A DNA stretch of 37,067 bases from positions 1 through 37,067 of the forward strand of contig JAGCVH010000007.1 of assembly GCA_017962495.1 (NCBI GenBank), read 5' to 3'. The position numbers were made by a program, and so were the translations under genes. The notes beneath the pieces are model-generated. The model saw only the letters and a list, made by a program, of their open reading frames with translations, ran no database searches and was not told the origin of the DNA. The DNA is from Bacteroidaceae bacterium. GTDB lineage: Bacteria > Bacteroidota > Bacteroidia > Bacteroidales > Bacteroidaceae. The first letter of the stretch is position 1. The number at the start of each line of letters is the position of its first letter. This document shows, piece after piece, positions 4,034-34,008 of this stretch.

Positions 4034-4759
4034 ATGACGAATCTAAGTGTAAACATCAATAAGATTGCCACCTTACGCAATGCGCGTGGAGGCGACAACC
4101 CCAATGTCTTGCAGGTGGCATTGGACTGCGAACGCTTCGGCGCGCAGGGAATCACCGTGCACCCGCGTCCCGACGAACGACACATACGTCGCAAGGATGT
4201 GTTCGACCTGCGCCCGAGGTTGACGACTGAATTCAATATCGAAGGCTATCCAAGTCCTGAGTTCATCGAGCTTGTAACCCAGGTGGTGCCCAACCAAGTT
4301 ACCCTTGTTCCCGACGACCCCTTGCAGATTACGAGCAATCATGGTTGGGACACCAAGGCGCATACTTCCTTCCTTACCGAGGTCACAGGACGCTTCCATG
4401 AGAAGGGCATCCGCGTAAGCATTTTCACCGATCCCAGTGAGGAAATGGTGGAATATGCCTCACAAACGGGAGCAGATAGGGTAGAGCTTTACACCGAACC
4501 CTATGCCTCGCTTTATTCCAAGGATAGGGCATTGGCCATCGAACCCTTTGTGCGTGCTGGCGAGAGGGCTAAGGCTTTGGGTCTCGGCCTTAATATGGGG
4601 CACGATCTAAGTCTTGAGAATCTGCGTTACATGCATGAGCGTATGCCTTATGTCGATGAGTGCAGCATCGGCCATGCTTTAGTATGTGACGCGCTTTACT
4701 TAGGACTTGAGGAGACGATACATCGGTATTTAGCGTGCCTCAACGACCCCACCCCCTAA
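4034..4759 (+). CDS. pdxJ: Pyridoxine 5'-phosphate synthase
   Basis: PdxJ condenses 1-deoxy-D-xylulose 5-phosphate with 3-amino-2-oxopropyl phosphate to pyridoxine 5'-phosphate, the last step of the DXP-dependent vitamin B6 route. The 241-residue protein has the family's TIM-barrel landmarks: [17 protein letters not shown] at the start, [13 protein letters not shown] (residues 40-52, with the conserved His), [10 protein letters not shown] and [11 protein letters not shown]. The length is typical. The final residues DPTP and the stop codon fall inside a palindromic repeat (4745-4782), so the tail is repeat-derived. It heads a run with DJ-1, ispD and recG. IspD in the same run uses a pathway that also starts from DXP. 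Confidence 0.95.
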
Positions 4760-4782
4760 CCCCCTCCCGAGGGCGAGGAGGG
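4745..4782 (+). repeat. GC-rich palindromic element, copy 1
   Basis: Forward orientation: GACCCC arm, then the imperfect palindrome CCCTCCCGAGGGCGAGG. It supplies the last four codons and the stop codon of pdxJ. Confidence 0.75.
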
Positions 4783-4831
4783 ATTACCGACCAGACAATC
4801 AAACTATATATTAATTAAGATAATAACGAAT

Positions 4832-5458
4832 ATGAGTAGCAACAGCAATTATGCCTCCCCCTCAGGGGAGGACAGGAGAGGGGTCATTTACGTCTTTCTT
4901 GCAGAGGGCTTCGAGGACATCGAAGCGTTGGCACCGGTCGATATCATGCGCCGTGCAGGCTTAGAGGTAGAGACAGTGAGCATTACCGACGAGATTGTGG
5001 TGACGAGTGCCCATGGGGTAGGCGTCGTTGCCGATAAGACTTTGCCCGAGATAGATTTCGAGGATGCCGACGTCATGTTCCTGCCAGGTGGTATGCCTGG
5101 TGCAGCGAATCTCGACGCATGTCAGGAACTTTGCGAGGGCCTTGTCCAGCATGTTGAGGCCGGACGCCTTATAGCAGCCATCTGTGCTGCCCCGATGGTG
5201 CTGGGTCATCTTGGTATCGTTGCGGGCAAGAAGGCCACTTGTTACCCCGGCTTCGAAGGGGAGTTGAAGGGCGCTGACTATACCGCTGCGCTCGTAGAGC
5301 AAGATGGTCAGGTCATCACAGGCAAGGGTCCTGGTGCCGCAATGGAATTAGGTTACACCCTTGTCGAGCGGTTGGTAAGCCGCGAAGTCGCAGACCAGTT
5401 GCGTGAAGGGATGATGTATAGACCCCACCCCCTTACCCCTCCCGAGGGAGGAGCGTGA
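4832..5458 (+). CDS. DJ-1/PfpI family protein (YajL/ThiJ-like)
   Basis: This 208-residue member of the DJ-1/PfpI flavodoxin-like superfamily has the nucleophile-elbow Cys at residue 118 (AAICAAPMVL) and the partner Glu near residue 25 (LAEGFEDIE), as in YajL and human DJ-1. Such proteins act in the cytoplasm in glyoxal detoxification, chaperone or oxidative-stress roles; the activity here is not determined. The domain really begins near residue 17 (GVIYVFLAEGFED). Residues 9-16 (SPSGEDRR) and the C-terminal RPHPLTPPEGGA are translated from palindromic elements at 4854-4885 and 5421-5452, so both ends are repeat-derived. It lies between pdxJ and ispD. Confidence 0.9.
   Translation: MSSNSNYASPSGEDRRGVIYVFLAEGFEDIEALAPVDIMRRAGLEVETVSITDEIVVTSAHGVGVVADKTLPEIDFEDADVMFLPGGMPGAANLDACQELCEGLVQHVEAGRLIAAICAAPMVLGHLGIVAGKKATCYPGFEGELKGADYTAALVEQDGQVITGKGPGAAMELGYTLVERLVSREVADQLREGMMYRPHPLTPPEGGA
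4854..4885 (-). repeat. GC-rich palindromic element, copy 2
   Basis: Reverse orientation: palindrome CCTCCCCCTCAGGGGAGG, then GAGAGGGGTC. It is translated in the N-terminal extension of the DJ-1 protein. Confidence 0.75.
5421..5452 (+). repeat. GC-rich palindromic element, copy 3
   Basis: Forward orientation: GACCCCACCCCC, then CCCTCCCGAGGGAGG. It encodes the last dozen residues of the DJ-1 protein and almost reaches its stop codon. Confidence 0.75.
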
Positions 5459-5482
5459 TAACTATAGAGAGTTGTCATCATA

Positions 5483-6223
5483 ATGAATATTGTGAATAAT
5501 AAGGGGAATAATCACCACTCCCTCCCCTCGGGGAGGGTGAGGGGTAGGGGTCATTACGTCATCATCGTCGCAGGCGGTAAGGGCCTGAGGATGGGGGGAG
5601 AGGTGCCCAAACAATACCTCCCCATCGGTGGCGTGCCTATACTGATGCGCACGCTGCAAGCCTTTCATGAGGCCGATGAGGATATGGGCATCATCCTTGT
5701 TCTCCCTAAGGATCAGCAGGAATATTGGGAACGCCTGTGTGCCGAGCACCAGTTCTCGGTGCCCCATCGTCTGGCCGTTGGCGGCGAGACGCGCTTTCAT
5801 TCCGTTCAGAACGGCTTGGACCTGGTGCCTGATGATGCAGAGGGTGTGGTCGGAGTGCACGATGGTGTGCGGCCCTTCGTCTCGAAGGAAGTGATTCATC
5901 GATGTTACGATGCCGCACGGGAGCATGGGGCAGTGGTGCCCGTAATCCCTATCGTTGAGACGGTAAGGCAATTACTTCCCGAGGGCGACAGCCTGACCGT
6001 GGACCGTGACCTCTATCGCCTTGTGCAGACACCGCAAGTGTTTCACGTCTCCTTGCTTAAGGAGGCGTATCGCCAACCTTACCGCCCTGAGTTCACCGAC
6101 GACGCATCGGTGGTGGAGGAACTTGGTCACCATGTCGCCTTGGTGTTAGGGAATCGGGAGAATATCAAGATAACGACACCGTCCGATATTAAGTACGCAG
6201 AGTTTTTAATTCTTAATCCTTAA
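5483..6223 (+). CDS. ispD: 2-C-methyl-D-erythritol 4-phosphate cytidylyltransferase
   Basis: IspD couples CTP to methylerythritol phosphate in the non-mevalonate isoprenoid pathway. The catalytic fold starts at [16 protein letters not shown] (from residue 24) with the nucleotide-binding glycine-rich loop, followed by PKQYLPIGG and the family signature VHDGVRPF (125-132). The ATG at 5483 gives 246 residues, about 23 more than the core needs. This extension is translated from a palindromic element (5520-5552). No start between it and the core is visible, so the extension is probably real, or initiation uses a weak codon. The last residues FLILNP come from the spacer repeat TTAATTCTTAATCC. The recG start is 28 bp downstream. 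Confidence 0.93.
5520..5552 (-). repeat. GC-rich palindromic element, copy 4
   Basis: Reverse orientation: perfect CCCTCCCCTCGGGGAGGG, then TGAGGGGTAGGGGTC. It is translated as [11 protein letters not shown] in the IspD N-terminal extension. Confidence 0.8.
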
Positions 6224-6243
6224 CTCTTAATTCTTAATCTTTA
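6205..6243. repeat. AT-rich 7-8 bp spacer repeat between ispD and recG
   Basis: Imperfect tandem copies of TTAATTC / TTAATCC / TTAACTC cover the ispD stop codon and most of the gap before recG. Similar spacers lie at 3017-3048, 12876-12972, 21969-22015 and 28799-28857. Confidence 0.6.
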
Positions 6244-6251
6244 TTTGGTCC

Positions 6252-8351
6252 ATGCCCACGAACATCCTTGACTATCCCGTTACTTATCTGCCCAACGTCG
6301 GTACGACGAGGGCGAAGCAACTTCACGACGGTATGGGCATATCGACCTATGGCGACCTCATTCAATATTACCCCTCTAAGCACATAGACCGCAGTCGTTT
6401 CTACTACACCCATGAGCTGACGACTGACATGCCTTACGTGCAACTCAAGGGGCAAATCCTTAGCTTTGAGGAGGAAGGGCAAGGGCGAAAGCGCCGCATC
6501 GTCGGGCACTTCTCGGACGGACATGGTATCATCGACCTCGTATGGTTCAATGGTTTGCAGTACGTGGAGCGGACCTATAAGCTGCTTACTGACTATGTTG
6601 TCTTCGGTAAGCCTACGATGTTCCGCGACCGTTTTAATATCACTCACCCCGAAATCGAGTCATTTGAGCGCTTCAACCGTACGGGAACGGGGCTTCGTCC
6701 CTATTACTCTGTGCCCGAAAAGATACAGAAGCGAGGCATCAACACCCGCATGATGGAGCAGTGGGTGGCTACCGTATTCCGCTGCATCCACGAGGCCTTG
6801 CCCGAGACACTCCCCGACTATCTCATACACGAGCTTAGGCTCATGCCGCGCGACGAGGCTATCCGTGCCATGCACTATCCGCAGTCGGCAGAGCACCTTA
6901 GTCGGGCCTCTTACCGCCTGAAGTTCGAGGAATTGTTCTTCATCCAGCTAAATATATTAAGGTATAGCCGTGAACGTAGCCGCCGATATGCCGGACATGT
7001 CTTCGCCAGAGTCGGGACCTTGTTCCACGAATTCTATGACCATCACCTGCCTTTCGCCCTAACGGAGGCACAAAAGCGTGTAATACGTGAGATACGCGAG
7101 GATATGCGCCATGGTAGGCAGATGAACCGCCTCCTTCAGGGCGATGTCGGTAGCGGCAAGACGCTGGTGGCCTTGATGTCGCAACTCATCGCCCTCGACA
7201 ATGGCTTCCAAGCTTGTATCATGGCCCCCACGGAGATACTGGCCGAGCAGCACCTCGATACTTACCTTCGCTTCTTAGGGGACATGCCTGTGCGCGTCGA
7301 GCTCCTGACCTCGAGTGTCAAAGGCAAGCGCCGTCAGGCCATATTGTCTGGACTTCAGAGTGGCGAGGTGCATATCCTCATCGGCACACATGCTATCATT
7401 GAGGACAATGTGCTATTTCGTAACCTCGGCATGGTGGTAATCGACGAGCAGCATCGCTTTGGCGTTGCCCAGCGTGCCAAGCTATGGTCGAAGAACCAAA
7501 CCCCGCCCCATGTGCTCGTAATGACTGCGACTCCCATCCCCAGGACCTTGGCGATGACGGTGTATGGTGACCTCGATGTGAGCGTAATCGACGAGCTTCC
7601 GCCCGGTAGGAAGCCCATCATGACCATCCATCATTACGAGAATCGGCGTCAAGAGTTATACAGTGGGCTTCGCCAGCAGATATCCTTGGGGCGGCAAGCC
7701 TATATCGTTTACCCGCTAATCAAGGAAAGTGAGAAGATGGATCTCCAGAACTTGGAGGAGGGTTATCGGGAGTTTTGCGAGGCGTTCCCCGACCTTCGCA
7801 TCAGCATGGTGCATGGCAAGATGAAGCAAGTCGATAAGGATCGGGAGATGAGTCTCTTTGTTTCGGGCGTGACCCATATAATGATGGCGACCACAGTCAT
7901 AGAGGTTGGCGTCAACGTTCCAAATGCTTCGGTCATGGCCATTATGAATGCCGAGCGCTTTGGTTTAGCACAGTTGCACCAGCTACGTGGTAGGGTTGGG
8001 CGCGGAGCGGACCAGAGCTACTGCATCCTTGTCACCAGCTTTAAGCTTTCACAGGACACTCGTCGGCGCATACAGATTATGACGGAGACGAACGATGGCT
8101 TCGAGATTGCTGAGGAAGACATGAAGCTTCGCGGCCCCGGCGACCTGGAGGGAACGCAGCAGAGCGGTATCCCCTTCGACCTGCACATAGCGAACTTGGC
8201 GCGCGATGGCCAGGTCGTTCAGATGGCACGCGACGTAGCCCGGCGCGTCCTCGACAGCGACCCGAAGTACGACCGTCCCGAACATCAGGCCATGTGGCAA
8301 GCGCTATCCGACCTCAATCGCCATAGCGTTGACTGGTCAGCGATAAGCTGA
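6252..8351 (+). CDS. recG: ATP-dependent DNA helicase RecG
   Basis: RecG is a branch-specific DNA translocase that remodels stalled forks, Holliday junctions and R-loops. The 699-residue protein is full length. The N-terminal wedge/OB domain (about 1-260) includes PYVQLKGQILSFEEEGQGRK and the lead-in YLPNVGTTRAKQL. The superfamily 2 helicase core has Walker A GDVGSGKT (297-304), the DEQH box (398-401, VIDEQHRFGVAQ), motif III MTATPIPRTLAMT and motif VI QLHQLRGRVGRG near 594. The start is the ATG after an AT-rich repeat spacer. It ends the pdxJ-DJ1-ispD-recG run. Confidence 0.97.
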   Translation: MPTNILDYPVTYLPNVGTTRAKQLHDGMGISTYGDLIQYYPSKHIDRSRFYYTHELTTDMPYVQLKGQILSFEEEGQGRKRRIVGHFSDGHGIIDLVWFNGLQYVERTYKLLTDYVVFGKPTMFRDRFNITHPEIESFERFNRTGTGLRPYYSVPEKIQKRGINTRMMEQWVATVFRCIHEALPETLPDYLIHELRLMPRDEAIRAMHYPQSAEHLSRASYRLKFEELFFIQLNILRYSRERSRRYAGHVFARVGTLFHEFYDHHLPFALTEAQKRVIREIREDMRHGRQMNRLLQGDVGSGKTLVALMSQLIALDNGFQACIMAPTEILAEQHLDTYLRFLGDMPVRVELLTSSVKGKRRQAILSGLQSGEVHILIGTHAIIEDNVLFRNLGMVVIDEQHRFGVAQRAKLWSKNQTPPHVLVMTATPIPRTLAMTVYGDLDVSVIDELPPGRKPIMTIHHYENRRQELYSGLRQQISLGRQAYIVYPLIKESEKMDLQNLEEGYREFCEAFPDLRISMVHGKMKQVDKDREMSLFVSGVTHIMMATTVIEVGVNVPNASVMAIMNAERFGLAQLHQLRGRVGRGADQSYCILVTSFKLSQDTRRRIQIMTETNDGFEIAEEDMKLRGPGDLEGTQQSGIPFDLHIANLARDGQVVQMARDVARRVLDSDPKYDRPEHQAMWQALSDLNRHSVDWSAIS

Positions 8352-8502
8352 TGACGCCAACGCCTTGCAGCCTTTTCCATAACGGGAATAGTATTCTGCT
8401 TAAGCAACATATTACTTTACTTAGTATTTTAATTATAGGCAAGGTGCAATATTTGCCTGACCTTGGCGTTATATATTTATATTTATAACGCTGAATCTTT
8501 CT

Positions 8503-11517: not shown

Positions 11518-11648
11518 GACTTACCGTACGAAGTATGGCACATTTCACTTTTTTCTTTATTTTTTTTGCCTTTTTACCGACATATTCTTCCGTGGGGTGT
11601 GTATATAAGGGTAGAGGAGCATCCTTATAACTTTGATTCGCCATCCCT

Positions 11649-12176
11649 ATGGACAACCTTGAACAACGAATGATAGATGCCGCCCGAAGGGGCGAGCCCG
11701 AGGGCTACAGCTACCTGATGACGAGGTACAGCCGTCGGGTGCTTCTGCTCGTAACGCAAGTGGTTTCCGACGCGAGGGATGCGGAGGAGGTGGCGCAGGA
11801 TGTCTTTGTCCGGGCCTTCGACAGGCTGGACATGTTCGACCAGGGTCGGGGCTCTTTCGGGGTATGGATAGGGCGCATAGCCTGGAACCTCGCATTGAAC
11901 GCGACACGCAGCCATAAACTAGAGGACCTAGAGATACTAGACAACCTAGACATTCATGAGGAACTAGACGACTCAGCCTCCGAGGCACAGCGCATCACGC
12001 TCCTGGACAAGGCCATCGAGCGTCTGCGGCCTGAGGAGCGAACGCTACTGCACTTGCACTACTACGACGGGCATTCGCTCCAGGAAATCGCAGAGATTAT
12101 GGACGTAGGTGCTGGGCCTTTGGCCAGCAGACTGCAGAGGATAAGACAGAAACTCACTAAACTTATAAGCAAATGA
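11649..12176 (+). CDS. ECF-type RNA polymerase sigma factor
   Basis: This 175-residue protein has the two-domain ECF layout. Region 2 is about 25-90 (SDARDAEEVAQDVFVRAFDRLDMF, GSFGVWIGRIAWNLALNATRS). The region 4 helix-turn-helix is about 120-170 (LRPEERTLLHLHYYDGHSLQEIAEIMDVGAGPLASRLQRIR). ECF factors direct transcription of envelope or stress regulons and are held by a membrane anti-sigma factor. The stop overlaps the next start in ATGA (12173-12176), which implies translational coupling. That next gene encodes a single-pass membrane protein, fitting the sigma/anti-sigma pattern. No typical TAnnTTTG box is seen upstream, so it may use its own promoter class. The target regulon is unknown. 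Confidence 0.9.
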   Translation: MDNLEQRMIDAARRGEPEGYSYLMTRYSRRVLLLVTQVVSDARDAEEVAQDVFVRAFDRLDMFDQGRGSFGVWIGRIAWNLALNATRSHKLEDLEILDNLDIHEELDDSASEAQRITLLDKAIERLRPEERTLLHLHYYDGHSLQEIAEIMDVGAGPLASRLQRIRQKLTKLISK

Positions 12177-12802
12177 ACAAGACGATGAACAACGAACAAG
12201 ATAAGCTTCTGCGCGAAGCCCTACGGCGGCGGGCGGACAGAGTCCCGACCTTGTCGGACGATTTCCAGGATGCCGTGCTACATAGAATGCAGAGGACCCA
12301 CCCTGTCCCTCCCTTAAAGGGAGGGGATGGCCTGCGGCATGGCAGCCTAAAGATATGGGCTTGGGTCGCCAGCATTGCAGCGATACTAGTCATTGGGTTC
12401 TTTGTGTTCCAGAGAGAGACCCCCTCCCCAATCCCTCCCCGAGGGGAGGGCATAGTACCCAAAGTTCCATCGATGGTGGCAGAGACCTCCCAATCTTCTC
12501 CCTCCCTTCAAGGGAGGGCAGGGGGTGGGTCCTCTAGTGGACAGGCGTCTGGGTCCTCCGTATCTTCATCCCCCTCCCCTCGGGGAGGGCAGGGGAAGGG
12601 GCCTAGGGCTAATGGTGCCTCCTCTATAGCTATATCTCCCTCCCCTCGGGGAGGGCAAGGGGTAGGGGTCTCATCCACTGCCCCCACACTTGCCGACCTC
12701 TACGCCGCCATCGACCAGATGACGAACGAGGCCATAGAGGAGGCTGACCGCCTGATGGCTGAGGCCTTGGTGCGCGAATATACTGATGATGAACCGTCCT
12801 AA
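12173..12802 (+). CDS. Probable anti-sigma factor, single-pass membrane protein packed with palindromic repeats
   Basis: The 209-residue protein starts by 4-bp overlap with the ECF sigma gene. Residues 1-40 are charged and helical, as expected of a cytoplasmic sigma-binding segment. Residues 61-79 (IWAWVASIAAILVIGFFVF) form one membrane helix, followed by a long low-complexity outer part and an acidic C-terminal helix (172-205, LADLYAAIDQMTNEAIEEAD). Five palindromic elements are translated in frame: residues 42-53, 83-93, 109-119, 133-144 and 155-166, giving the motif SPSPRGGQG twice. About a quarter of the protein is therefore repeat-derived, mostly in the extracytoplasmic linker. The anti-sigma role is inferred from position and topology; no zinc-binding anti-sigma motif is seen. 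Confidence 0.65.
   Translation: MNKTMNNEQDKLLREALRRRADRVPTLSDDFQDAVLHRMQRTHPVPPLKGGDGLRHGSLKIWAWVASIAAILVIGFFVFQRETPSPIPPRGEGIVPKVPSMVAETSQSSPSLQGRAGGGSSSGQASGSSVSSSPSPRGGQGKGPRANGASSIAISPSPRGGQGVGVSSTAPTLADLYAAIDQMTNEAIEEADRLMAEALVREYTDDEPS
12295..12326 (+). repeat. GC-rich palindromic element, copy 5
   Basis: Forward orientation: GACCCACCCTGT, then CCCTCCCTTAAAGGGAGGG. It is read as THPVPPLKGGDG just before the membrane helix of the probable anti-sigma factor. Confidence 0.75.
12418..12450 (+). repeat. GC-rich palindromic element, copy 6
   Basis: Forward orientation: GACCCCCTCCCCAAT, then CCCTCCCCGAGGGGAGGG. It is read as TPSPIPPRGEG just outside the membrane helix. Confidence 0.8.
12500..12531 (-). 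repeat. GC-rich palindromic element, copy 7
   Basis: Reverse orientation: CCCTCCCTTCAAGGGAGGG, then CAGGGGGTGGGTC. It is read as SPSLQGRAGGGS. Confidence 0.8.
12572..12603 (-). repeat. GC-rich palindromic element, copy 8
   Basis: Reverse orientation: CCCTCCCCTCGGGGAGGG, then CAGGGGAAGGGGCC. It is read as SPSPRGGQGKGP. It is nearly identical to copy 9 and in the same frame. Confidence 0.85.
12638..12670 (-). repeat. GC-rich palindromic element, copy 9
   Basis: Reverse orientation: CCCTCCCCTCGGGGAGGG, then CAAGGGGTAGGGGTC. It is read as SPSPRGGQGVGV. Confidence 0.85.
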
Positions 12803-12805
12803 TTA

Positions 12806-12839
12806 GGCCCCTCTCCATCTCCCCCCTCAAGGGGGAGGG
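12806..12839 (+). repeat. GC-rich palindromic element, copy 10 (non-coding)
   Basis: Forward orientation: GGCCCCTCTCCAT, then TCCCCCCTCAAGGGGGAGGG. It begins 4 bp after the stop codon of the probable anti-sigma gene. As RNA it would fold into a stable hairpin and could protect or end the sigma/anti-sigma transcript. Confidence 0.8.
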
Positions 12840-12875: not shown

Positions 12876-12972
12876 AATCGTAACTTGTAATTCCTAACTC
12901 GTATTTGTGCGAAGCCCTAAATCGTAATTTGTAATTCCTAACTCGTAACTAAATAAATTCTTAACTCAATAA
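12876..12972. repeat. AT-rich spacer repeat before the 706-residue protein gene
   Basis: Two copies of a longer unit (TCGTAA-TTGTAATTCCTAACTCGTA) are separated by TTTGTGCGAAGCCCTAAA, then TAAATAAATTCTTAACTC. No promoter box is seen in this spacer. Confidence 0.55.
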
Positions 12973-12975
12973 TGT

Positions 12976-15487: not shown

Positions 15488-15579
15488 AGGTATATTATAC
15501 TTAAGGGCTCAAGTATACTATACTTAAGGGCTCAAGTATACTATACTTAAAGGCTCAAGTATATTATACCTTAATTTCC
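15488..15579. repeat. 23-bp palindrome array, four units, in the HU leader
   Basis: Four contiguous 23-bp units at 15488, 15511, 15534 and 15557. The middle two contain the perfect palindrome AAGTATACTATACTT followed by AAGGGCTC or AAAGGCTC. The outer units carry single changes (AGGTATATTATACTT, AAGTATATTATACCT). The spacing is about 2.2 helical turns, suited to repeated protein binding on nearly one face. In RNA each unit could also form a small hairpin. Confidence 0.9.
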
Positions 15580-20507: not shown

Positions 20508-21971
20508 ATGAAGAGATATTTGTTATTGATACTATGCCTTGCAGGGGTCACGTCTATGGCCCACGCCCAGCGAAAGCTTAGCCTTGACAGCTGTCGCGCT
20601 ATGGCCTTGCAGGGGAACAAGCAATTGACTTTGGCCCGTCTCAGTCAGGACGTAGCTCGCGATGTTAAGAAGGCTGCGCGCACACAGTACTTGCCTAAGG
20701 TCGATGCCTTAGGGGGATACTCCTACATGAGTAAGGAGTTTTCAATCCTCAACGACAAGCAGAAGTCGGCCTTAAGCAATATCGGTACCAATGGCGTCAA
20801 TAGTATGTCGACGTCGAGCATCGGGGCACAATTGGCCCAGATACTTGCAGGTATGGGGATGGATCCCGCACAGGTGTTGCCAGCAGCGGCTACGTCGTTG
20901 AATCAGGTAGGGCAGGGCGTTGTCGATGCCTTCCGTACGGACACTCGTAGCATGTGGGCTGGTACCATCCAGTTGCGACAGCCTTTATATTTGGGCGGTG
21001 CCATTAGGGCTGCCAACCGCATGGCTGATATCGGTGAGAACGTTGCCGATATACGCATCGAACAGCAGATGCAAGAGACTATCTATGACGTTGATAAGGT
21101 CTATTGGCTGGTCATCTCCTTAAGGCATAAGCAGCGCTTGGCCGAGAGTTTCCGTGACCTGGTCTCCCACCTCGATGAGGATGTGCATAAGATGATAGAT
21201 GAGGGAGTCGCTACACGTGCCGACGGATTGAAGGTGGATGTGCGCGTCAATGAAGCAGAGATGAAGATCACAGAGGTAGAGAATGGCCTGTCCCTGTCTC
21301 GTATGCTTCTGTGCCAGTTGTGCGGACTTCCGCTCGACACCGACTTTATCTTGGAGGATGAAGATAAGGACCTTCAAGTCCCAACATTAGAGACACAGCC
21401 CGATGGCGATATTAACCTTCGTCCCGAACTCCGCTTATTAGAGTCGGCGGTAGAGCTTAGCCGTCAGGGCGAAAAGCTAGCATTAGCACCCTATCTACCT
21501 CATGTCGGTGTAATAGCAGGCTATACCTTCTCTAACCCCAATGTCTTTAACGGTTTCGAGCAAAAGGTAGGAGGTTTCTGGAACGTGGGCGTAATGATTC
21601 ACGTCCCAGTCTGGAACTGGATGGAGGGCAAGTTTAAGGTTAGAGCCGCCAAGACTTCTACCGTTATGGCCCAAACGACATTAGACGAGGCCCGTGAAAA
21701 GATAGACCTTCAGCTGGCTCAGAGCAGGTTTAAGGTGACTGAGGCCCATAAGAAGCTGGAGCGTGCCAATAAGGATATCGAGAGTGCAGAAGAGAACTTG
21801 CGTTGCGCAAATGCAGGCTTCCACGAGGGAGTGATAGATGCAACGACGGTGATGGCTGCCCAGACTGCATGGCAACAGGCCGAGAGCCAGCGCATCGATG
21901 CTGAGATCGATGTGAAGATGGCTGAAACGACTTTGCGCAAGACCTTGGGAACGTTGTCTATTGATAGATAA
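20508..21971 (+). CDS. TolC-family outer-membrane efflux protein
   Basis: The 487-residue protein has a signal peptide (1-20, cleavage after AHA) and the duplicated long-helix plan of TolC-type channels. First-half helices start at LDSCRAMALQGNKQLTLARLSQ. The second half repeats the pattern (INLRPELRLLESAVELSRQGEKLALAPYLPHVGVIAGY, then IDLQLAQSRFKVTEAHKKLERANKDIESAEENL). It forms the outer-membrane exit duct and works with the HlyD-type adaptor and the two ABC-2 permeases that follow in the same operon. The substrate is unknown. Confidence 0.93.
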   Translation: MKRYLLLILCLAGVTSMAHAQRKLSLDSCRAMALQGNKQLTLARLSQDVARDVKKAARTQYLPKVDALGGYSYMSKEFSILNDKQKSALSNIGTNGVNSMSTSSIGAQLAQILAGMGMDPAQVLPAAATSLNQVGQGVVDAFRTDTRSMWAGTIQLRQPLYLGGAIRAANRMADIGENVADIRIEQQMQETIYDVDKVYWLVISLRHKQRLAESFRDLVSHLDEDVHKMIDEGVATRADGLKVDVRVNEAEMKITEVENGLSLSRMLLCQLCGLPLDTDFILEDEDKDLQVPTLETQPDGDINLRPELRLLESAVELSRQGEKLALAPYLPHVGVIAGYTFSNPNVFNGFEQKVGGFWNVGVMIHVPVWNWMEGKFKVRAAKTSTVMAQTTLDEAREKIDLQLAQSRFKVTEAHKKLERANKDIESAEENLRCANAGFHEGVIDATTVMAAQTAWQQAESQRIDAEIDVKMAETTLRKTLGTLSIDR

Positions 21972-22016
21972 TTCAATAAATCGTAAATTGTAAATCGTTA
22001 AATCGTAAATAATATT

Positions 22017-25371: not shown

Positions 25372-25374
25372 AAA

Positions 25375-25406: not shown

Positions 25407-25465
25407 CACACGAAAAATCTGAGTTTATGCGTTCCTTTATATAAAGGAAGCACGATAATTACTAT

Positions 25466-25933: not shown

Positions 25934-25951
25934 TACACTCAAAAACGACAT

Positions 25952-26896: not shown

Positions 26897-26914
26897 AAAC
26901 AAAGAAAATAGCAG

Positions 26915-26952
26915 AAAAAAGGCTCGATGTGATAATACATCGGGCTTTTTTT
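26915..26952 (+). terminator. Intrinsic terminator after the M23 peptidase gene
   Basis: GCTCGATGT (26922-26930) pairs with ACATCGGGC (26937-26945) over 9 bp with one G-U pair and a GATAAT loop. It is preceded by an A-tract and followed by seven T. Confidence 0.9.
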
Positions 26953-26954
26953 AT

Positions 26955-26962
26955 TATCTTTG
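26955..26962 (+). promoter_or_regulatory. -7 box of the DUF1599 operon promoter
   Basis: TATCTTTG directly follows the terminator T-tract, so the -33 region falls inside the hairpin and is not recognisable. The leader to the ATG at 26985 is about 20 nt. Confidence 0.45.
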
Positions 26963-26984
26963 CCCACGTTATTATATAAAAGAG

Positions 26985-27548: not shown

Positions 27549-28728
27549 ATGGCTGGTTGTAAACCTTTGTCGGTTACTGCTGTCATTCACCTTCCTCTTC
27601 TCAGGACTGGTGAAGCTGATAGACCCGCGAGGAACGCAGTACAAGATTGAGGACTATGTGATAGGCTTCGGACTTCCCATGTTCGACACGCCGCTCACGC
27701 CCTTAGCCCTCGCAGTCATCTTGGCGCTGGTGGAGTTCTACATCGGTTTCAACCTCTTCTTTGGTATTCGAAGGCGTACGACGTCTCGGTTGGCCTTGTG
27801 CCTCCTGTTGGTGATGACACCCGTCACTTTCTACCTCGCCCTGTCTAATGCCATTTCCGATTGCGGTTGCTTTGGCGATGCTCTGCGCCTTACTCATTGG
27901 CAGACGTTTGGCAAGAATGTGGTCTTGCTTGTGGCAGCTATCGTGGTGGTGATATACTATCGCAAGCTCACACGCTTCATCACCGAGCGCAATCAATGGC
28001 TCCTGTCGCTCTACGCGCTGGTGTTTGCCCTCTTTCTGGCCATTTTCAACATCCGTCACCTGCCCGTTATCGACTTCCGACCCTATTATGTAGGAGTTGA
28101 CCTTCCTCGCGCCATTGAGGCAGAGTGGGAGAGGGGAGACGGCGAGATGCAATATCTCGACTTTGGTTTCCAAACCCTTGAGGGCGAGGACATCACCTTC
28201 GAGTGGATAGGTCAGAAGGGCTACAAGTTTATGCTTGTGACACCTTGGCTCGAACAAGCCGATGATGGTCCTATGGACAGGATAAACGCCCTCTATGACT
28301 ATTGCAAGGAACACGGCTATCCCTTCCTGGCTTTGACATCGAGTCTGCAGGAGAGCATCGACCGTTGGAAGGACCTTACAGGAGCTGAGTACGATTTCGC
28401 GCTTGCCGACGGAACCCTGCTGAAGACCATTATCCGCTCCAATCCCGGACTGCTACTCATGCACGATGGCGTCATCTATCAGAAATGGGCAGCCTCAGAC
28501 ATACCCAATGTCGAAGACCTCACCACACCTCTCGAAGAGAGTCGTCTTGGGCAGATGCAGGTTCATAGTCGCACGCAGACCATCTGGAAGCTGTTCCTAT
28601 GGTTCTTCCTTCCCTTGCTCCTGTGGACACTTATCGACCGCATCTGGGTAGGCCATACGTTCTATGAGAGAAGAAAAATACACAAACGTACGCCCTCTCC
28701 AGGCGGCCTTCGGCCTAATGAAAAATGA
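27523..28728 (+). CDS. BT_3928-family DoxX-like membrane protein with thioredoxin-like C-terminus
   Basis: From the ATG at 27523 the protein has 401 residues; a TTG 6 bp upstream is less likely. About residues 10-180 hold the membrane domain with DoxX/MauE character, including FSGLVKLIDPRGTQYKIEDY and the paired-Cys motif SDCGCFGDAL. Residues of about 205-345 look like a thioredoxin fold without CxxC (LTSSLQESIDRWKDL, PGLLLMHDGVIYQKWA). One more membrane helix follows near 365-385. The final TPSPGGLRPNEK is translated from repeat-like sequence (28690-28730). A redox or electron-transfer role is possible but unproven. It overlaps the DUF1599 gene. Confidence 0.82.
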   Translation: MTKRAKQVRWLVVNLCRLLLSFTFLFSGLVKLIDPRGTQYKIEDYVIGFGLPMFDTPLTPLALAVILALVEFYIGFNLFFGIRRRTTSRLALCLLLVMTPVTFYLALSNAISDCGCFGDALRLTHWQTFGKNVVLLVAAIVVVIYYRKLTRFITERNQWLLSLYALVFALFLAIFNIRHLPVIDFRPYYVGVDLPRAIEAEWERGDGEMQYLDFGFQTLEGEDITFEWIGQKGYKFMLVTPWLEQADDGPMDRINALYDYCKEHGYPFLALTSSLQESIDRWKDLTGAEYDFALADGTLLKTIIRSNPGLLLMHDGVIYQKWAASDIPNVEDLTTPLEESRLGQMQVHSRTQTIWKLFLWFFLPLLLWTLIDRIWVGHTFYERRKIHKRTPSPGGLRPNEK

Positions 28729-28744
28729 AAAAGTGATGAAGTGA

Positions 28745-28774
28745 GAGCCCCTTCTGACTCCCCCAAGGGGGAGG
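28745..28774 (+). repeat. GC-rich palindromic element, copy 11 (non-coding)
   Basis: Forward orientation: GAGCCCCTTCTGA, then CTCCCCCAAGGGGGAG. It lies in the gap before tpiA, followed by AT-rich AAATAGTC/TAAATCG repeats (28785-28857). Confidence 0.7.
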
Positions 28775-28857
28775 AGTATAAAATTGCTAAATGATAAAAT
28801 AGTCAAATAAATAGTCAAATAAATCGTAAATCGTAAATAGTAAATCGTAAATTAATT

Positions 28858-29616
28858 ATGCGTAAGAAAATTGTAGCAGGCAACTGGAAAATGAACCTGA
28901 ACCTGCAGGAAGGTGTAGCATTGGCTACTGAGTTGAAAGCTGCTTTGGCAGCTGACAAACCCAATTGTGATGTTGTTATCTGCACTCCTTTCATCCATCT
29001 GGCTACGGTAGCTGGTGTGGTAGAAGGAACTGTTATCGGTCTGGGTGCCGAGAACTGTGCCGACAAGGAAAAGGGCGCTTATACTGGCGAAGTTAGTGCC
29101 GCTCAAGTGAAGAGCACTGGCGCGCAGTACGTCATCCTTGGTCACTCCGAGCGTCGTGCCTATTATGGCGAGACCGCCGAGATCCTGAAGGAGAAAGTTA
29201 ACTTGGCTCTGGCCAACGGCCTGAAGGTCATCTTCTGCATTGGCGAAGTGCTCGAGGAGCGCGAGGCAGGCAAGCAGAACGAAGTAGTTGGTGCTCAGTT
29301 GGCAGGCAGTCTCTATGACCTCACAGCCGAGCAGATGGGCAGCATCGTCCTCGCTTACGAACCCGTTTGGGCCATCGGTACGGGCAAGACCGCTACCAGC
29401 GACCAGGCACAGGACATGCACGCTTTCATCCGTGGTGAGATCTGCAAGCAGTTCGGTGCTGAAGTGGCAGAGAACCTGAGCATTCTCTATGGCGGTTCTT
29501 GCAAGCCCTCCAATGCTAAGGACATATTCTCGAAGCCCGATGTTGATGGTGGCCTCATTGGTGGTGCCGCCCTCAAGTGCGAGGACTTCAAGGGTATCAT
29601 CGACGCTTGGAAGTAA
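28858..29616 (+). CDS. tpiA: Triosephosphate isomerase
   Basis: TpiA interconverts dihydroxyacetone phosphate and glyceraldehyde 3-phosphate in glycolysis. The 252-residue barrel has all catalytic residues: Asn9 and Lys11 (GNWKMN), His96 (ILGHSERR) and Glu168 ([11 protein letters not shown]), with the phosphate-gripping loop after it and [10 protein letters not shown] near the end. The start follows a spacer of TAAATCG-type repeats. Confidence 0.98.
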
Positions 29617-29698
29617 CTATGGCATTGAGACATTGAGAAGTGAGATATTGAGCGCGCAAATGAGTAAGTCCATAAAGATTAAATCGAAGGAACACAAT

Positions 29699-30292
29699 AT
29701 GAAAATTATGAGGAAAAAACGTATAACTTTATCCGGAAGGCATCTTCTGTTGCTTTCTCATTTTCTCATTTTCTCATTTTCTCAGTCGCTATTTGCCCAG
29801 ACGCAACCCTTCACCGAGCGCCTGCAAAAGGCAGTGTCCGGACAAGGAACGGTCCGACTGCACCAGGATGCCGACATCGTGGCGCTGGTCAACGGAACTG
29901 CGCGTCGTACCATCACAACCACGCGTAGCGCACTCCTTACCTCCACCGACTCCCTGCTCTCAGCCAACGACTCGCTCCTCATGGGAACGGGGCGCAAAGT
30001 CCGCATGAACGGCTATCGTGTGCAAGTCTATGCAGGAGGCAACTCCCGCGATGCCAAGCGCCGTGCCTATCAGGTCGATGCACTCGTCAGGAAACTCTTC
30101 CCCGAGCAACCCGTCTACACGCGTTTCATTTCTCCCCGATGGATATGCCACGTAGGCGATTTCAAGACACGAAACGAGGCCCTGCGCCTGCTCAAGGACC
30201 TGCGTCGCACAGGCAAGTTCTCTGAAGCCATCACCGTACGTTGCAAAATCAATGCCTATGTCTATGAACAACCAACAGTTGACGAATATTGA
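29699..30292 (+). CDS. Secreted SPOR-domain protein
   Basis: SPOR domains bind denuded peptidoglycan at division sites. The frame is open from before 29660, but the signal peptide fits an ATG at 29699 (MKIMRKKR, then a Leu/Ser/Phe core, cleavage near LFAQ), giving 197 residues. Starts at 29660 and 29708 are alternatives. The SPOR-like domain covers about residues 105-185 ([41 protein letters not shown]). The hydrophobic core of the signal peptide is encoded by four copies of an 8-bp repeat. The 3' end overlaps folE by 41 bp. Confidence 0.8.
29754..29785 (+). repeat. 8-bp tandem repeat encoding a signal-peptide core
   Basis: Four units of TTTCTCAT (the last TTTCTCAG) encode the residues [11 protein letters not shown] in the SPOR protein. 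The unit length is not a multiple of 3, so a change in copy number would shift the frame. Confidence 0.9.
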
Positions 30293-30833
30293 GCAGCGGG
30301 TGCGTGAGTTGCTCACCCTCATCGGTGAAGACCCTCAGCGCGAAGGACTGCAGAAGACACCCATCCGTGTGGCAAAAGCTATGGCCGACCTCACACGAGG
30401 CTACGACGAAGACCCCATCGAGATACTCAATCAGGCCAAGTTCAAGGAAGACTACAGCCAGATGGTCATCGTCAAGGACATCAACTTCTACTCCCTCTGC
30501 GAGCACCACATGATACCCTTCTACGGCAAAGCCCATGTGGCTTACATCCCCAACGGCTACATCACAGGCCTCTCCAAGATAGCCCGCGTGGTCGACTGCT
30601 ACAGCCATCGCCTGCAAGTGCAGGAACGCATGACGCTGCAGATACGCGAAGCCATACAGAAAGCCCTTCAGCCCCTGGGAGTGATGGTCGTAGTCGAGGC
30701 CCAGCACATGTGCATGCAGATGCGCGGTGTCGAGAAGCAAGGTTCCATCACCACCACCAGCGACTTCACTGGCGCCTTCAACCAAGCCAAGACACGCGAC
30801 GAGTTCCTCAAGCTCATCAGTCACAAATCGTAA
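30252..30833 (+). CDS. folE: GTP cyclohydrolase I
   Basis: FolE converts GTP to 7,8-dihydroneopterin triphosphate, the first step of folate (and queuosine) synthesis. The 193-residue protein has the zinc ligands Cys83, His86 (SLCEHHMIP) and Cys154 ([11 protein letters not shown]), plus YCSLxxHH-adjacent substrate residues, [21 protein letters not shown] and the C-terminal TRDEFL. In-frame ATGs at 30252, 30258 and 30264 are all possible starts. It overlaps the SPOR gene and ends the operon before a strong hairpin. Confidence 0.96.
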
Positions 30834-30862
30834 GCCCTCGGGCAGACATACAACCAAGAAAC

Positions 30863-30897
30863 AAGAATCGAGAGCCTTTTTGGGGTTCTCGATTCTT
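30863..30897 (+). terminator. Bidirectional hairpin terminator between folE and the P5-like gene
   Basis: AAGAATCGAGA (30863-30873) pairs perfectly with TCTCGATTCTT (30887-30897) over 11 bp. The downstream side is T-rich (TTTTCCTTTTTCC). It lies between convergent genes. Confidence 0.75.
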
Positions 30898-30922
30898 TGG
30901 TTTACTTTTCCTTTTTCCTTTT

Positions 30923-31411
30923 TCATTTATGCCACTCCGGCGTTAAATGCGGGTCGCCCAGACCTGAAAGAATCACTCCCGTATTCACAGCCGCCACAGG
31001 CACGGCATCGGGCGGACAGCCCGTCTCCACGCAGGTCATTGCCGCTACCAGGAGCGCCAGTTGCAACCGTCCGGGTTTGGTGTGGGGCGGAGCCAGACGT
31101 GTCTGACCCCTGTCGCGCCCCATCAGTTCCAGCACGCGGCGGATGTACGCCTCCGTGTTGTTCTCACTTGCCGGCGCCCACCGACCGATGATGTTCTCCA
31201 CGTCCCACGCCCTGCCCTGCTGACAGAACAGCTGGTAGTAACTCCTCAGGCATCGGGCGGCAGCGCGGTAGCCCCAAGTCATGTTCAGGAACTGGCAGAA
31301 CTGCCCGTCCGTACGTTTCTCTTTTGCCACGAGGCCCTGCCACTCCTCGCCTCGTCTGATATTCAGCGGGTTATTGTTTCGCCACCCGCGGCTTTGTTCA
31401 TATTTCTTCAT
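30923..31411 (-). CDS. Phage structural protein P5-like / lysozyme-related protein
   Basis: From the ATG at 31411 the protein has 162 residues (MKKYEQSRGWRNNNPLNIRR...). This start is preferred over the ATG at 31450, because the added 13 residues come from a GCGCATT repeat. It resembles Bacteroidota proteins annotated as structural protein P5, with RNNNPLNIRRGEEWQGL, FCQFLNMTWGYRAAARCLRSYY and NIIGRWAPASENNTEAYI. This pattern suggests a small cell-wall-active or phage-tail-associated protein. A hydrophobic segment with two Cys lies near 125-145. Such genes often sit near VirE/DUF3987 genes. The function is inferred from memory of the family only. Confidence 0.6.
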   Translation of the reverse strand: MKKYEQSRGWRNNNPLNIRRGEEWQGLVAKEKRTDGQFCQFLNMTWGYRAAARCLRSYYQLFCQQGRAWDVENIIGRWAPASENNTEAYIRRVLELMGRDRGQTRLAPPHTKPGRLQLALLVAAMTCVETGCPPDAVPVAAVNTGVILSGLGDPHLTPEWHK

Positions 31412-31427
31412 AGTTGAAAAATTTTTT

Positions 31428-31457
31428 GTGCGCTTATGCGCAATGCGCAATGCGCTA
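31428..31457. repeat. Left 30-bp inverted repeat of the accessory module
   Basis: The sequence contains TGCGCAATGCGCAATGCGC. Its reverse complement matches 36997-37026 with two single-base-level indels (TAGCGCATT...GCGCAC in both). It lies 8 bp beyond the stop codon of the VirE/DUF3987 gene. Confidence 0.75.
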
Positions 31458-31464
31458 TTTGGTT

Positions 31465-34008
31465 TTAAATTATCGTCACTCCTGTCTTACGATACAGTGC
31501 AGGCGTGTTACGCTTCTCTTCTCTCACTTTTTTAATCTGATGATCGCGCAGTAGAAAGCTTATCCTCGTTCGAGCAGAGCCGTCGCTTCTCAGGTTGAAG
31601 CATCGCATCACGTCGGCCGTGGTGAATTCTTCTGGCAGTCGCTCGAAGGCTTCGCGTGTCTTCTGATGGCGCTTCACGTTGGCGTTGGCTTCCTGCGTTT
31701 GGGCTGTGAAGTACTTCTCCGCCATGCTTCCGAAGTAGTGACGCTGACAGGCGTACTGGATGTTGCAGAGCAGTTCCGTCAGTCGCCAGTCCACCTCGTC
31801 CGTCTCGAAGTGTACGGTCCACATGTTGCCGTCCTGTTCCATCTCCTGCCAGTGGCGCATGACGATGAAAGGCGTGGCAAAGTTCAGTCCGTGGTAGGCA
31901 CAGCGCTTCAGCAACATTTCATCGGCCCTGGAGTCGTTCTCCCCAGCGTCGGCCATGCGGCGTGACGTCCAGTCGTACAGCTCATCCACAATCTTGTCCA
32001 GCGGTAGTAGGCCCTTCGTCTTGTCCAGTTTGCGGGCCCACAGCTCCAGTCGTTTGTCGCTCTCGAAGTCGATGTCGCGCCCACGCTCCATCATCTCGAA
32101 GTTTGTGGCAGGCAGGGGTATGCAAGTCAGGCGTGTTGCCAGTCCCGAACCAAAGTTCTGTTCGTTCACCTTCCTCTTCAGCGCCAGCGGCGTGCCTGTG
32201 TATATGAAGTTCCAGGTGACATTGAAGTCCTGCAGGATGCTGTCGACATTGGAGTAGGCCTGTCCGTCCTCCTCGTTGTGGAACGCCTTCAGTTCCAGAC
32301 TCTGCTTGTCAATCCACGACCCACCTCGCTGTATGGAAAGCGTGTTGTCCAGCTCCGTGTCGAAGGTGAGCATGTGCAGTTGCATCTTCTCTCCGTCCAC
32401 CTCCTCCACAGCGTTCACCATATCCTGAATGAACTGTGCGTTCGAGGTTCGTGCAGGATGTATGCGCACCACCACTTTGGGCTTCGCAGGTTTCTCCTTG
32501 TTGGCACCCTTCGTCTTCATCAGTTCGCGATAGGCATTTATGGCGTCCTTGCCCTCCTTGTCGGCCTCCACGATGGGCCTTGCCAACAATTTGTAGAGAC
32601 GTGTTGCAAACGATTTTCCGCTGGCAGGGTCGCCGATAATGAAGGTCGAGTTGTTGAGTCGGCGCAGATCCTCAGGTCTGTGGTAGAAGCGATAGGTGCA
32701 GCGCGTCATCAGCGTCATCATCAGTCCGCCACCCACGAACAGCGCGGCAGGGTATTGGCTCGGCTTCAGTCCCTTGCACACATCCTTTAGGGTAGGATAG
32801 TCGTCGAACAACTCCCCGATTTCCCGTCCCCACGTGTCCAGTTGCTTTTCCAAATTTGTCAGCGGGGCTTCCACCTCTACCTTCAAGCTGGTGGCGTTGG
32901 TGGGGTTCACGATGTCCTGATACGACTTTCCTGCGACCTCACAAATAGCCTCTTGCATGGCTTTGCTGGGCAGTTGCATGAGATATTTCTTCTCTCTCTC
33001 CGCCATGCGCTGGGCAGCGCTTTCCACCGTTTGGTCCACTCGCTCGTTGCGCTCTTCAATGATTTCCTTCACCCAGGGTTGTCGGCAGAGCACCTCCAAC
33101 ACCCGTTGCTTGTCGCCGTCGAAGAGCACCAGCAGGTCGCTGGCCAGTCGCAGGCTCTCGTTGTGGCGGTTCGAGTCGGCAGCACAAGGCAGTTTCTCAG
33201 CGAAACGCTTGTCGATTATCGACTGCACGTCATAGCCTCGCCAAAGAATGTTCTCTCCTGTTCCCTGCCCATTTTCTCCCTCTCCCATTCGAGGGAGAGG
33301 GTTGGGGTGAGAGGGACAGGTGGGCCCACTCTGCCCTTTCTGATATGCCTCGTTGTACTTCGCGGCAAACTCGGGGTTCTGGTAGGTGAAGAGTTCTGTA
33401 CGATGGATGTACAGGATGTCCTCCTCGCGACACACGAACGACATGCGGCTGGCGTCCTTGCACGATTCGTCCACCTTCACGCCCAACAACTCGGCCATAC
33501 GATGCTGGTTGTCGATGAGGTTTCCCCATTCGGGTCGTGCCTTGAAGACAATCTTCAGTCCTTTTCCTGAGGGGGTTATGTACACCAAAACGATACCCAG
33601 GCCCCTCTCTGACTCCCCCGAGGGGGAGGAAGAAGATACTTCTGTTGAATCATCTTCAATTTTGCGCTCGGCACTTGTGACGCTTGATTCATTCAAGAAT
33701 TTTGAATTTTGAATTTCCGACCACAACTTGTTGGGGTCGGGGATGTGGTCGACATCGATGACAACAAGGCCTGTCAACTTAGCAGCCGACTGCTTGCGCC
33801 AATTGCCCTTCTTGCCTGACTTTGAGAGCGATTCGTCGAAGGTGGCTTGGAACATGAAGGCAGGGAGTTTGCGCTTCAGCTTCGCGTCGCCCGTCTGGCG
33901 GTAGCCCTCGATGAGTTGCTTCGTCATCGGACTTCTCACGATTTGCCAAAACACGTCAGGCGTAACACCCTCGGCTGGCATACTCAGATTTCGTTGTAAG
34001 CTAAACAT
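31465..34008 (-). CDS. VirE N-domain (BT4734-like) / DUF3987 primase-helicase-like protein with repeat insertions
   Basis: This 847-residue protein has an N-terminal BT4734/VirE-N-like domain with LVVIDVDHI (81-89) and YITPSGKGLKIVF (143-155), resembling the catalytic motifs of primase-polymerase enzymes. The DUF3987 ATPase part has Walker A GDPASGKS (459-466). Two stretches look foreign. Residues about 99-135 (copy 13 plus an AATTTTGAATTTTG-type repeat) fall between the two N-domain motifs. Residues about 229-250 (copy 12, PSHPNPLPRMGEGENGQGTG) lie after that domain. Both keep the frame. It follows a small gene by 18 bp. A role in replication of an integrated element is plausible; no partner integrase is seen. 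Confidence 0.8.
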   Translation of the reverse strand: MFSLQRNLSMPAEGVTPDVFWQIVRSPMTKQLIEGYRQTGDAKLKRKLPAFMFQATFDESLSKSGKKGNWRKQSAAKLTGLVVIDVDHIPDPNKLWSEIQNSKFLNESSVTSAERKIEDDSTEVSSSSPSGESERGLGIVLVYITPSGKGLKIVFKARPEWGNLIDNQHRMAELLGVKVDESCKDASRMSFVCREEDILYIHRTELFTYQNPEFAAKYNEAYQKGQSGPTCPSHPNPLPRMGEGENGQGTGENILWRGYDVQSIIDKRFAEKLPCAADSNRHNESLRLASDLLVLFDGDKQRVLEVLCRQPWVKEIIEERNERVDQTVESAAQRMAEREKKYLMQLPSKAMQEAICEVAGKSYQDIVNPTNATSLKVEVEAPLTNLEKQLDTWGREIGELFDDYPTLKDVCKGLKPSQYPAALFVGGGLMMTLMTRCTYRFYHRPEDLRRLNNSTFIIGDPASGKSFATRLYKLLARPIVEADKEGKDAINAYRELMKTKGANKEKPAKPKVVVRIHPARTSNAQFIQDMVNAVEEVDGEKMQLHMLTFDTELDNTLSIQRGGSWIDKQSLELKAFHNEEDGQAYSNVDSILQDFNVTWNFIYTGTPLALKRKVNEQNFGSGLATRLTCIPLPATNFEMMERGRDIDFESDKRLELWARKLDKTKGLLPLDKIVDELYDWTSRRMADAGENDSRADEMLLKRCAYHGLNFATPFIVMRHWQEMEQDGNMWTVHFETDEVDWRLTELLCNIQYACQRHYFGSMAEKYFTAQTQEANANVKRHQKTREAFERLPEEFTTADVMRCFNLRSDGSARTRISFLLRDHQIKKVREEKRNTPALYRKTGVTII
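33278..33317 (-). repeat. GC-rich palindromic element, copy 12
   Basis: CCCTCTCCCATTCGAGGGAGAGGG, split as a palindrome around ATTCG, then TTGGGGTGAGAGGGAC. It is translated on the minus strand as SHPNPLPRMGEG. It is a diverged relative of the other copies. Confidence 0.65.
33600..33630 (+). repeat. GC-rich palindromic element, copy 13
   Basis: GGCCCCTCTCTGA, then CTCCCCCGAGGGGGAGG. It is translated on the minus strand as SSSPSGESERG, inside the VirE N-domain. Confidence 0.75.
33691..33719. repeat. AT-rich repeat inside the VirE/DUF3987 gene
   Basis: Tandem GAATTTT-type units (ATTCAAGAATTTTGAATTTTGAATTTCC) of the kind usual in spacers. They are read on the minus strand as EIQNSKFLN, immediately before the segment that leads to copy 13. 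Confidence 0.65.

Follow-up and report, generated by a model that had tools for sequence, protein, structure and literature searches.

Among the described repeats closest to the element treated here are the TM motif of Escherichia coli and, before it, BoxC and PIT, for which class II triplexes were reported from circular dichroism and nuclear magnetic resonance (NMR) (Holder et al. 2015, PMC4666352, where the PIT work of Hoyne et al. 2000 is cited). According to the accessible part of that paper, copies of the E. coli motif are highly alike, always intergenic and sometimes arranged as inverted pairs; they are associated with instability, with no link to transposons in that text (PMC4666352). 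When we searched E. coli genomes with a 34-nt BoxC consensus, 5,359 of 5,426 matched, at a median of 18 places (limit on the expectation value, E, of 10). On whether bacterial triplex repeats are triplexes in cells, probing of the E. coli motif in vivo was indecisive (PMC4666352, accessible part), and the E. coli copies are probably too alike for sequence comparison to say much. Here we describe a dispersed, GC-rich palindromic element with a one-sided purine arm in contig JAGCVH010000007.1 of a Bacteroidaceae bacterium. The window, that is the whole stretch of 37,067 nucleotides analyzed, is one contig (C61) of a 104-contig genome of 2.95 Mb which is 85% complete.

Other short repeats are known to enter genes. 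Repetitive extragenic palindromic (REP) elements and Rickettsia palindromic elements (RPE) occur inside genes, uvrA and uvrB included (PMC3733652), seven stem-loop families span borders of coding and non-coding DNA, and the family Cod-2 is translated in different frames (PMC2267715). Bacteroidetes possess the REP-associated transposases TnpAREP of subclasses 2.4 and 2.6, and for subclass 2.6 atypical structures are described that have copies elsewhere in the genome (PMC6006769); for these three papers, too, our statements reflect their accessible parts. Our element is probably a repeat of the BoxC/PIT type, with the layout of an intrastrand triplex, mobile now or formerly, and kept for the structure of its DNA, with its translation being tolerated.

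Unit layout and the mirror relation of arm to stem

The window contains 13 copies of about 30-40 bp between positions 4745 and 33630, a series that is recovered by a profile of nine copies set in one orientation. The core CCCTCCCCTCGGGGAGGG, with up to three mismatches allowed, gave eight matches (four places, each counted once per strand), where 100 shuffles led us to expect 0.03, and it is present without mismatch at four places. A dispersed GC-rich palindromic repeat, as claimed by an earlier reading made from the sequence alone (the sequence-only reading), is thus confirmed by both searches. That reading saw a palindrome with an arm ending in GGGGTC. The hairpin and the one-sided arm hold, but the arm ends either in GTC or in GGC/GCC and, what had been overlooked, it mirrors the purine half of the stem. 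A unit consists of a pyrimidine stem half, a loop of 3-6 nt, a purine stem half, a few nucleotides and the purine arm with its terminal GTC or GGC/GCC, an order abbreviated below as Y-R-R.

Six stem families were distinguished (GGGAGGG, GGGGAGG, GGGAAGG, GGGAGAG, GAGAGGG and GGGGAAG), and the mirror relation tends to hold across families, as in GGGGGAAG-TC-GGAAGGGGG, AGGGAGAG-TCA-GAGAGGG, GGGGAGG-TCA-GGAGGGG and GGAGAGGG-TT-GGGGAGAGG; a complete unit from an asymmetric family reads CTTCCCC-TTGA-GGGGGAAG-TC-GGAAGGGGGC. Profile matches of at least 8 bits numbered 115, of which 112 could be parsed and 101 entered the mirror test. Their own arms scored 7.03 as mirrors against 6.05 (standard deviation 0.12) for shuffled arms, a value reached by none of 20,000 shuffles, while the direct-repeat score of the same copies showed no excess (6.17 against 6.12, reached by 7,427 of 20,000 shuffles). 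An arm in direct repeat, which would allow an alternative Watson-Crick hairpin, was rejected for this lack of excess. When each of the 40 distinct asymmetric stems was counted once, 25 favored the mirror, five the direct repeat and ten were tied (p=3e-4); this number of distinct stems obeying the mirror is a better measure than the shuffle probabilities. A mirror repeat cannot result from Watson-Crick pairing, whereas a purine-motif triplex could account for it and also permits A or T opposite A. With the register set on G positions only, the arm letter facing a stem G was G in 509 of 551 cases and the letter facing a stem A was A in 78, T in 46, G in 26 and C in 4. The A/A, T/A and G/G combinations agree with purine-motif triads.

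The relation was also found with patterns that contain no arm. Three hairpin-only patterns gave 108, 408 and 21 forward matches in 61 genomes of the genus, against 7, 9 and 3 for the reversed patterns. Of these, 25, 30 and 17 loci, respectively, were taken up, and their flanks were retained for scoring if 7 or more of 14 positions were G. Among 52 unique arms 33 were mirrors, four direct and 15 tied; stem GAGAGGG contributed 22, 2 and 5 (n=29) and stem GGGGAAG 6, 0 and 2 (n=8). A scan of 80 loci from named relatives that was blind to the arm detected 20 pyrimidine-purine hairpins (40 rows, each on both strands), and in an informal look several of them (L027, L044, L051, L057 and L069) favored the mirror and others tied. 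The layout is that of an intrastrand purine-motif DNA triplex, and the units could fold accordingly.

Spread, gene ends and orthologues

Genome searches were done with a second model, R1, which is blurred at its 3' end because the alignment program MAFFT left hairpins of 18 and 19 nt ungapped. As no more than 150 candidates were scored per genome, all copy numbers are lower bounds. The source genome has at least 33 matches at E<=0.001 and at least 128 at E<=1 (150 of 1,010 candidates scored, where one palindrome may count on both strands). Matches at E<=0.001 were present in 20 of 25 genomes of the genus, the source genome included, and in one of 16 others (G026). By the DJ-1/PfpI protein the nearest named relatives (L013-L018) are metagenome-assembled genomes labelled Bacteroidales or Prevotellaceae, and many of the next-nearest come from rumen and gut samples. 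As a separate observation, CCCTCTC..GAGAGGG hairpins number 25-58 in each of G013, G018, G020, G063, G067, G069 and G071 and are lacking in 19 of the 61 genus genomes, an unevenness among species which suggests lineage-specific bursts.

To describe positions we used a census of 79 located and deduplicated copies of at least 11 bits, taken from 61 stretches of DNA (305 kb with the window, 85% coding). Called coding sequences were overlapped by 42 copies, with 24 internal, 11 N-terminal, four C-terminal and three over a 3' end, while 37 were intergenic; the 69 copies outside the window were divided into 36 intergenic, 19 internal, nine N-terminal, three C-terminal and two over a 3' end. So large an intergenic share in DNA that is 85% coding indicates that gene interiors are avoided and that the window, where 11 of 13 copies overlap coding sequence, is atypical. 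The coding bias proposed in the sequence-only reading therefore does not extend to the genome. Neighboring copies no more than 150 bp apart (18 pairs) were oriented outward in 13 cases, inward in one and in tandem in four.

Among 32 intergenic copies whose arm end could be made out clearly, 18 have the arm tip no more than 15 nt from a gene, while random relocation within the same gaps predicts 4.2 (standard deviation 1.8, maximum 12 in 5,000 runs). Thirteen of these tips are at stop codons and five at starts, and their outer flanks are A-rich. Either a preference for A-rich targets or selective loss of the intervening sequence would fit this position of the tips; REPs likewise lie near gene ends, as the accessible part of PMC12306157 has it. 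In the 11 N-terminal copies the called start is 22-41 nt upstream of the hairpin, and four of these N-termini look, by eye, like signal peptides. Among internal copies each of the three codon phases occurs in either orientation, which rules out a fixed reading phase, and each of the two consensus forms is stop-free in four of six frames. The earlier statement that all copies keep the frame is true of those that are read, although such open frames make it less telling.

Comparison of orthologues, like the whole-genome search a check proposed in the sequence-only reading, points to gains of the element within genes. The clearest is a GT2 glycosyltransferase gene with a 68-nt pair directly before YYLLLNSDVEV, encoding DPPQPSLEGREHSSPLRGGQEGS as read from the DNA. 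Orthologues were matched in 58 of 61 genomes, and six of the nine fetched have a plain site. The pair is present in the source genome and L277, a degenerate unit of lesser length in L276, and ten additional residues that bear no clear likeness to the element in L278, a distribution by which orthologue sequences polarize the change as an in-frame gain of an element pair. QueA orthologues were matched in 57 of 61 genomes and 11 of them were fetched and judged by eye. One loop holds element-like sequence, different each time, in the source genome, L286, L287, L288 and L289, and a nearby loop does so in L291 and L292, with none in L290 and L293-L296; the QueA loop is possibly a hotspot of in-frame insertion across species. 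Three Pfam domains, those of QueA (PF02547), GT2 (PF00535) and a radical SAM protein (PF08497), have a pair inside their matched span.

At the N-terminus of DJ-1/PfpI (yajL) the element is present in the source genome and L013 and absent in L015 and L016, the junctions being GTC|ATTTAC and GTC|GTTTTT in the former and ATG|ATTTAC and ATG|ATATAC in the latter; L014 has an intergenic pair instead. In the L124 gene, which we take to be Fmt, the element is present, but the linker varies in length among nine fetched relatives, so that no more than its presence is claimed. By eye no ancestral intergenic sequence was recognized in the spacers of pairs.

The copies of the window and their host genes are listed in Table 1. 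The lowest profile scores were those of the copies at 33276 (5.7 bits), 28748 (8.8 bits) and 33603 (11.6 bits), and the first of these resembles the BoxC form (CCCTCTCCC..GGGAGAGGG..TTGGGGTGAG). The sequence-only reading counted 11 of 13 copies as translated; 11 do overlap coding sequence, but the one at the end of pdxJ is translated in part. It also placed one copy inside a catalytic domain. Judged from the profile match, copy 13 probably lies within the BT4734-like_N domain, just before the matched part (residues 140-200 of the product, profile positions 58-134). In the product of gene 12173-12802 one copy precedes a hydrophobic stretch recognized by eye and four lie in the Ser/Pro/Gly-rich part after it; from its position this product is possibly an anti-sigma factor.

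Table 1. Copies of the element and their host genes (positions in the window)
Feature	Position	Strand	Description
Copy 1	4745..4778	-	arm and hairpin at pdxJ 3' end; pdxJ stop TAA inside arm, partly translated
Copy 2	4854..4885	+	translated N-terminus of DJ-1/PfpI (yajL-like) gene; GGGGTC end adjoins ATTTAC; outward pair with copy 1
Copy 3	5421..5453	-	translated C-terminus of DJ-1/PfpI gene
Copy 4	5520..5552	+	N-terminal end of ispD, translated; pairs outward with copy 3
Copy 5	12295..12325	-	inside gene 12173-12802, RTHPVPPLKGG; ahead of hydrophobic segment
Copy 6	12418..12450	-	inside gene 12173-12802, ETPSPIPPRGEG
Copy 7	12500..12531	+	inside gene 12173-12802, PSLQGRAGGGS; outward pair with copy 6
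Copy 8	12572..12603	+	inside gene 12173-12802, PSPRGGQGKGP; end placed by hand at GGGGCC (parser: 12609)
Copy 9	12638..12670	+	inside gene 12173-12802, PSPRGGQGVGV
Copy 10	12807..12837	-	intergenic; arm tip 5 nt from gene end at 12802
Copy 11	28748..28775	-	intergenic, degenerate, 8.8 bits
Copy 12	33276..33319	+	BoxC-like variant, 5.7 bits; translated antisense in gene 31465-34008, SHPNPLPRMGEG
Copy 13	33600..33630	-	translated in gene 31465-34008, SSPSGESERG, about residues 127-137
pdxJ host gene	4034..4759	+	PF03740
DJ-1/PfpI host gene	4832..5458	+	PF01965
ispD host gene	5483..6223	+	PF01128
Host gene with five copies	12173..12802	+	directly 3' of extracytoplasmic function (ECF) sigma factor gene; unmatched in Pfam
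BT4734-like_N host gene	31465..34008	-	PF08800

Other repeats were noted in the window. AT-rich repeats of the TTAATTCTTAATC type and the AATCGTAAATCGTAAAT type form two families (3027-3054 and 6209-6236; 12876-12947, 21964-22001 and 28807-28849), several of them at gene junctions, and in the relatives L299 and L300 a loop of UvrA is encoded by AT-rich sequence that resembles them. Short tandem arrays lie at 1149-1258 and 15490-15569 (units with GAAGACCTAAGGCCTTCC; 23-bp units GTATACTATACTTAAGGGCTCAA), a GCGCATTGCGCATTGCGCA-like inverted pair (31434-31455 and 37007-37028) flanks the stretch with the BT4734-like gene, and positions 36214-36825 give a sub-threshold match to 23S_rRNA_IVP (PF05635, 28.6 bits, cut-off 33.8).

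Weighing of the explanations

The explanation we consider probable is that a mobile or once-mobile repeat of the BoxC/PIT type diversified in this Prevotellaceae/Bacteroidales lineage. A single Y-R-R strand would fold into a hairpin whose purine arm lies back along the purine half as a purine-motif triplex. Units, either single or as outward inverted pairs ending in GAC...GTC, would in the main occupy gene junctions, where many abut a stop or start codon next to A-rich sequence, and in some cases gene interiors. The structure of the DNA would be what is kept and translation a by-product: since the frames are mostly stop-free and give Pro/Gly/Ser-rich peptides, in-frame survivors could be tolerated at protein ends, linkers and loops.

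Several points weigh against this explanation. The copies share descent, so that the covariation statistics are inflated and the probabilities too small; the arm was part of the profile behind the first covariation set, and the second set had been selected for flanks rich in G. Five asymmetric stems out of 40 fit a direct repeat better, and 26 of the 154 arm letters facing a stem A are G. For stem GGGAGAG taken by itself the hairpin-only result is weak (mirror 5, direct 2, tie 8; n=15). The copy in UvrA fills a loop that has equal length in the element-free relatives L299 and L300, which rules it out as a clean insertion. Genes were called with a simple codon model of our own and gene 12173-12802 was entered manually. 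No gene for a mobilizer was found. For the E. coli motif itself, dimethyl sulfate probing in vivo left guanines unprotected and the only signal was a polymerase stop in primer extension (PMC4666352, accessible part).

A stronger version, which we regard as doubtful, is that the element represents a new class of mobile DNA, in which an enzyme other than RAYT, the REP-associated tyrosine transposase (a Y1 HUH transposase), would recognize the Y-R-R fold and place single units or outward pairs directly against stop or start codons. Covariation of arm and stem would follow, because a changed stem must carry its arm along to stay mobile.

That these are ordinary REP elements, or REPINs (doublets of REP hairpins), moved by RAYT, with the G-rich arm as tag or linker, is unlikely. 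The sequence-only reading likened the element to REP-type elements moved by RAYT; dispersal, palindromic structure and outward pairs like REPINs among neighboring copies agree with the likeness to REPs, as do the one-sided tag of the hairpin and its proximity to gene ends, and Bacteroidetes do have TnpAREP, with subclass 2.6 being atypical (PMC6006769, accessible part). Mobilization by RAYT is not supported. The source genome has no match to PF01797, the Y1 transposase profile, in its 85% complete assembly, and among the 12 genus genomes with at least nine element matches the profile is spanned by a match in G013 alone (partial ones occur in G003, G010 and G017); it is unlikely that the other 11 miss it by chance, despite incomplete assemblies. 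Another full-length Y1 gene in the genus is that of G022, which has three element matches at E<=0.001. No element lies within about 2 kb of the full-length genes of G013 and G022, and none was present at ten Y1 loci inspected, nine from outside the genus and one from within, although copies lie 1.6 kb from another Y1 match in G022, which is weaker (44.8 bits). Y1 matches occur in 13 of the 16 genomes from outside the genus; of these 16, G026, with six such matches, is the only one that has the element. The tags are moreover GAC/GTC or GCC/GGC, where REPs would show GTAG or CGTC, and the arm is a mirror of the stem. On the evidence of the source genome, the relatives and the Y1 loci RAYT was rejected as main driver.

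A G-quadruplex of the purine side, in place of a triplex, as the conserved structure is improbable. Many members have four G-runs, GGGAGGGCTGGGGTGGG for example, but the pattern G3+N1-7 four times on the purine side was found in just 29 of 102 copies included in this count, and the mirror is kept in GGGGGAAG..GGAAGGGGGC and in GGGAGAG..GAGAGGG, which lack four G3 runs. For the E. coli motif a quadruplex was excluded by NMR, according to the accessible part of PMC4666352.

We give very little credence to the possibility that the peptides are selected as linkers and the element spreads because proteins use it. The GT2 insert stays open in two species (L275, L277) and in gene 12173-12802 much of the Pro/Gly/Ser-rich C-terminal stretch consists of four of its five copies, but the peptides differ from copy to copy as a result of the use of every phase and orientation, gene interiors are avoided overall, and the covariation of stem and arm is a feature of DNA found in a set that includes intergenic copies. 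A role in RNA, as terminators or mRNA-stabilizing hairpins at gene ends, is the least probable of all: 13 copies are flush with stop codons, but the arm faces the gene whether the copy is at a stop or at a start, so that transcripts carry opposite strands, no Rfam 15 family matched the window at gathering score, and purine-motif triplexes do not form in RNA (PMC4666352, accessible part).

Comparison with known repeats

With REPINs the element shares outward inverted pairs of hairpin units near gene ends, and it differs from them in the absence of any association with RAYT in our searches and in its termini. With TnpAREP subclass 2.6 (PMC6006769) it shares a Bacteroidetes host, while no Y1 gene was found in its own genome, 85% complete, and the full-length Y1 genes of G013 and G022 are unflanked by it. 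The border-spanning stem-loop families can be set apart by description, as a mirror arm is not described in the accessible text of PMC2267715.

Within genes the element resembles the Rickettsia elements, which are likewise short palindromic repeats placed in frame in unrelated genes, with plain sites in orthologues (clear here for GT2, not for UvrA). RPE-4 and RPE-6 are counted among CGTC repeats (PMC3733652, accessible part), whereas the units described here have GAC/GTC ends and a mirror arm; this comparison, too, was made by description. In-frame repeats of this kind connect repetitive DNA and the ends of genes with the origin of new segments in proteins, as is seen in the polarized gain in GT2 and the repeatedly hit loop of QueA.

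The likeness to BoxC/PIT/TM, which the sequence-only reading did not mention, as it did not mention the mirror layout or the geometry at gene ends, is in the Y-R-R class II purine layout (the E. coli motif being about 37 nt), in dispersal with some inverted pairs and in the lack of a reported association with mobile elements for the E. coli motif (PMC4666352, accessible part). A variant in the genus, CCCTCTCC..GGAGAGGG..GTTAGGGGTGAGG, is near the E. coli BoxC form. Two differences are evident: stems vary widely here, with covarying arms, while the E. coli copies are highly alike, and more than half of the censused copies overlap coding sequence and many arm tips abut stops or starts, while the E. 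coli motif is always intergenic, again by the accessible part of that paper. Our searches of the open-access literature in PMC brought up no account of triplex repeats being translated in Bacteroidales. Varied stems followed by mirror arms, with A or T mostly opposite A, are natural covariation evidence for a third strand, and the genus offers a test bed in which families that differ in sequence should share one fold. Judged by its layout the element is of the BoxC kind, of which we consider it a putative variant, and within genes it behaves like the palindromic elements of Rickettsia.

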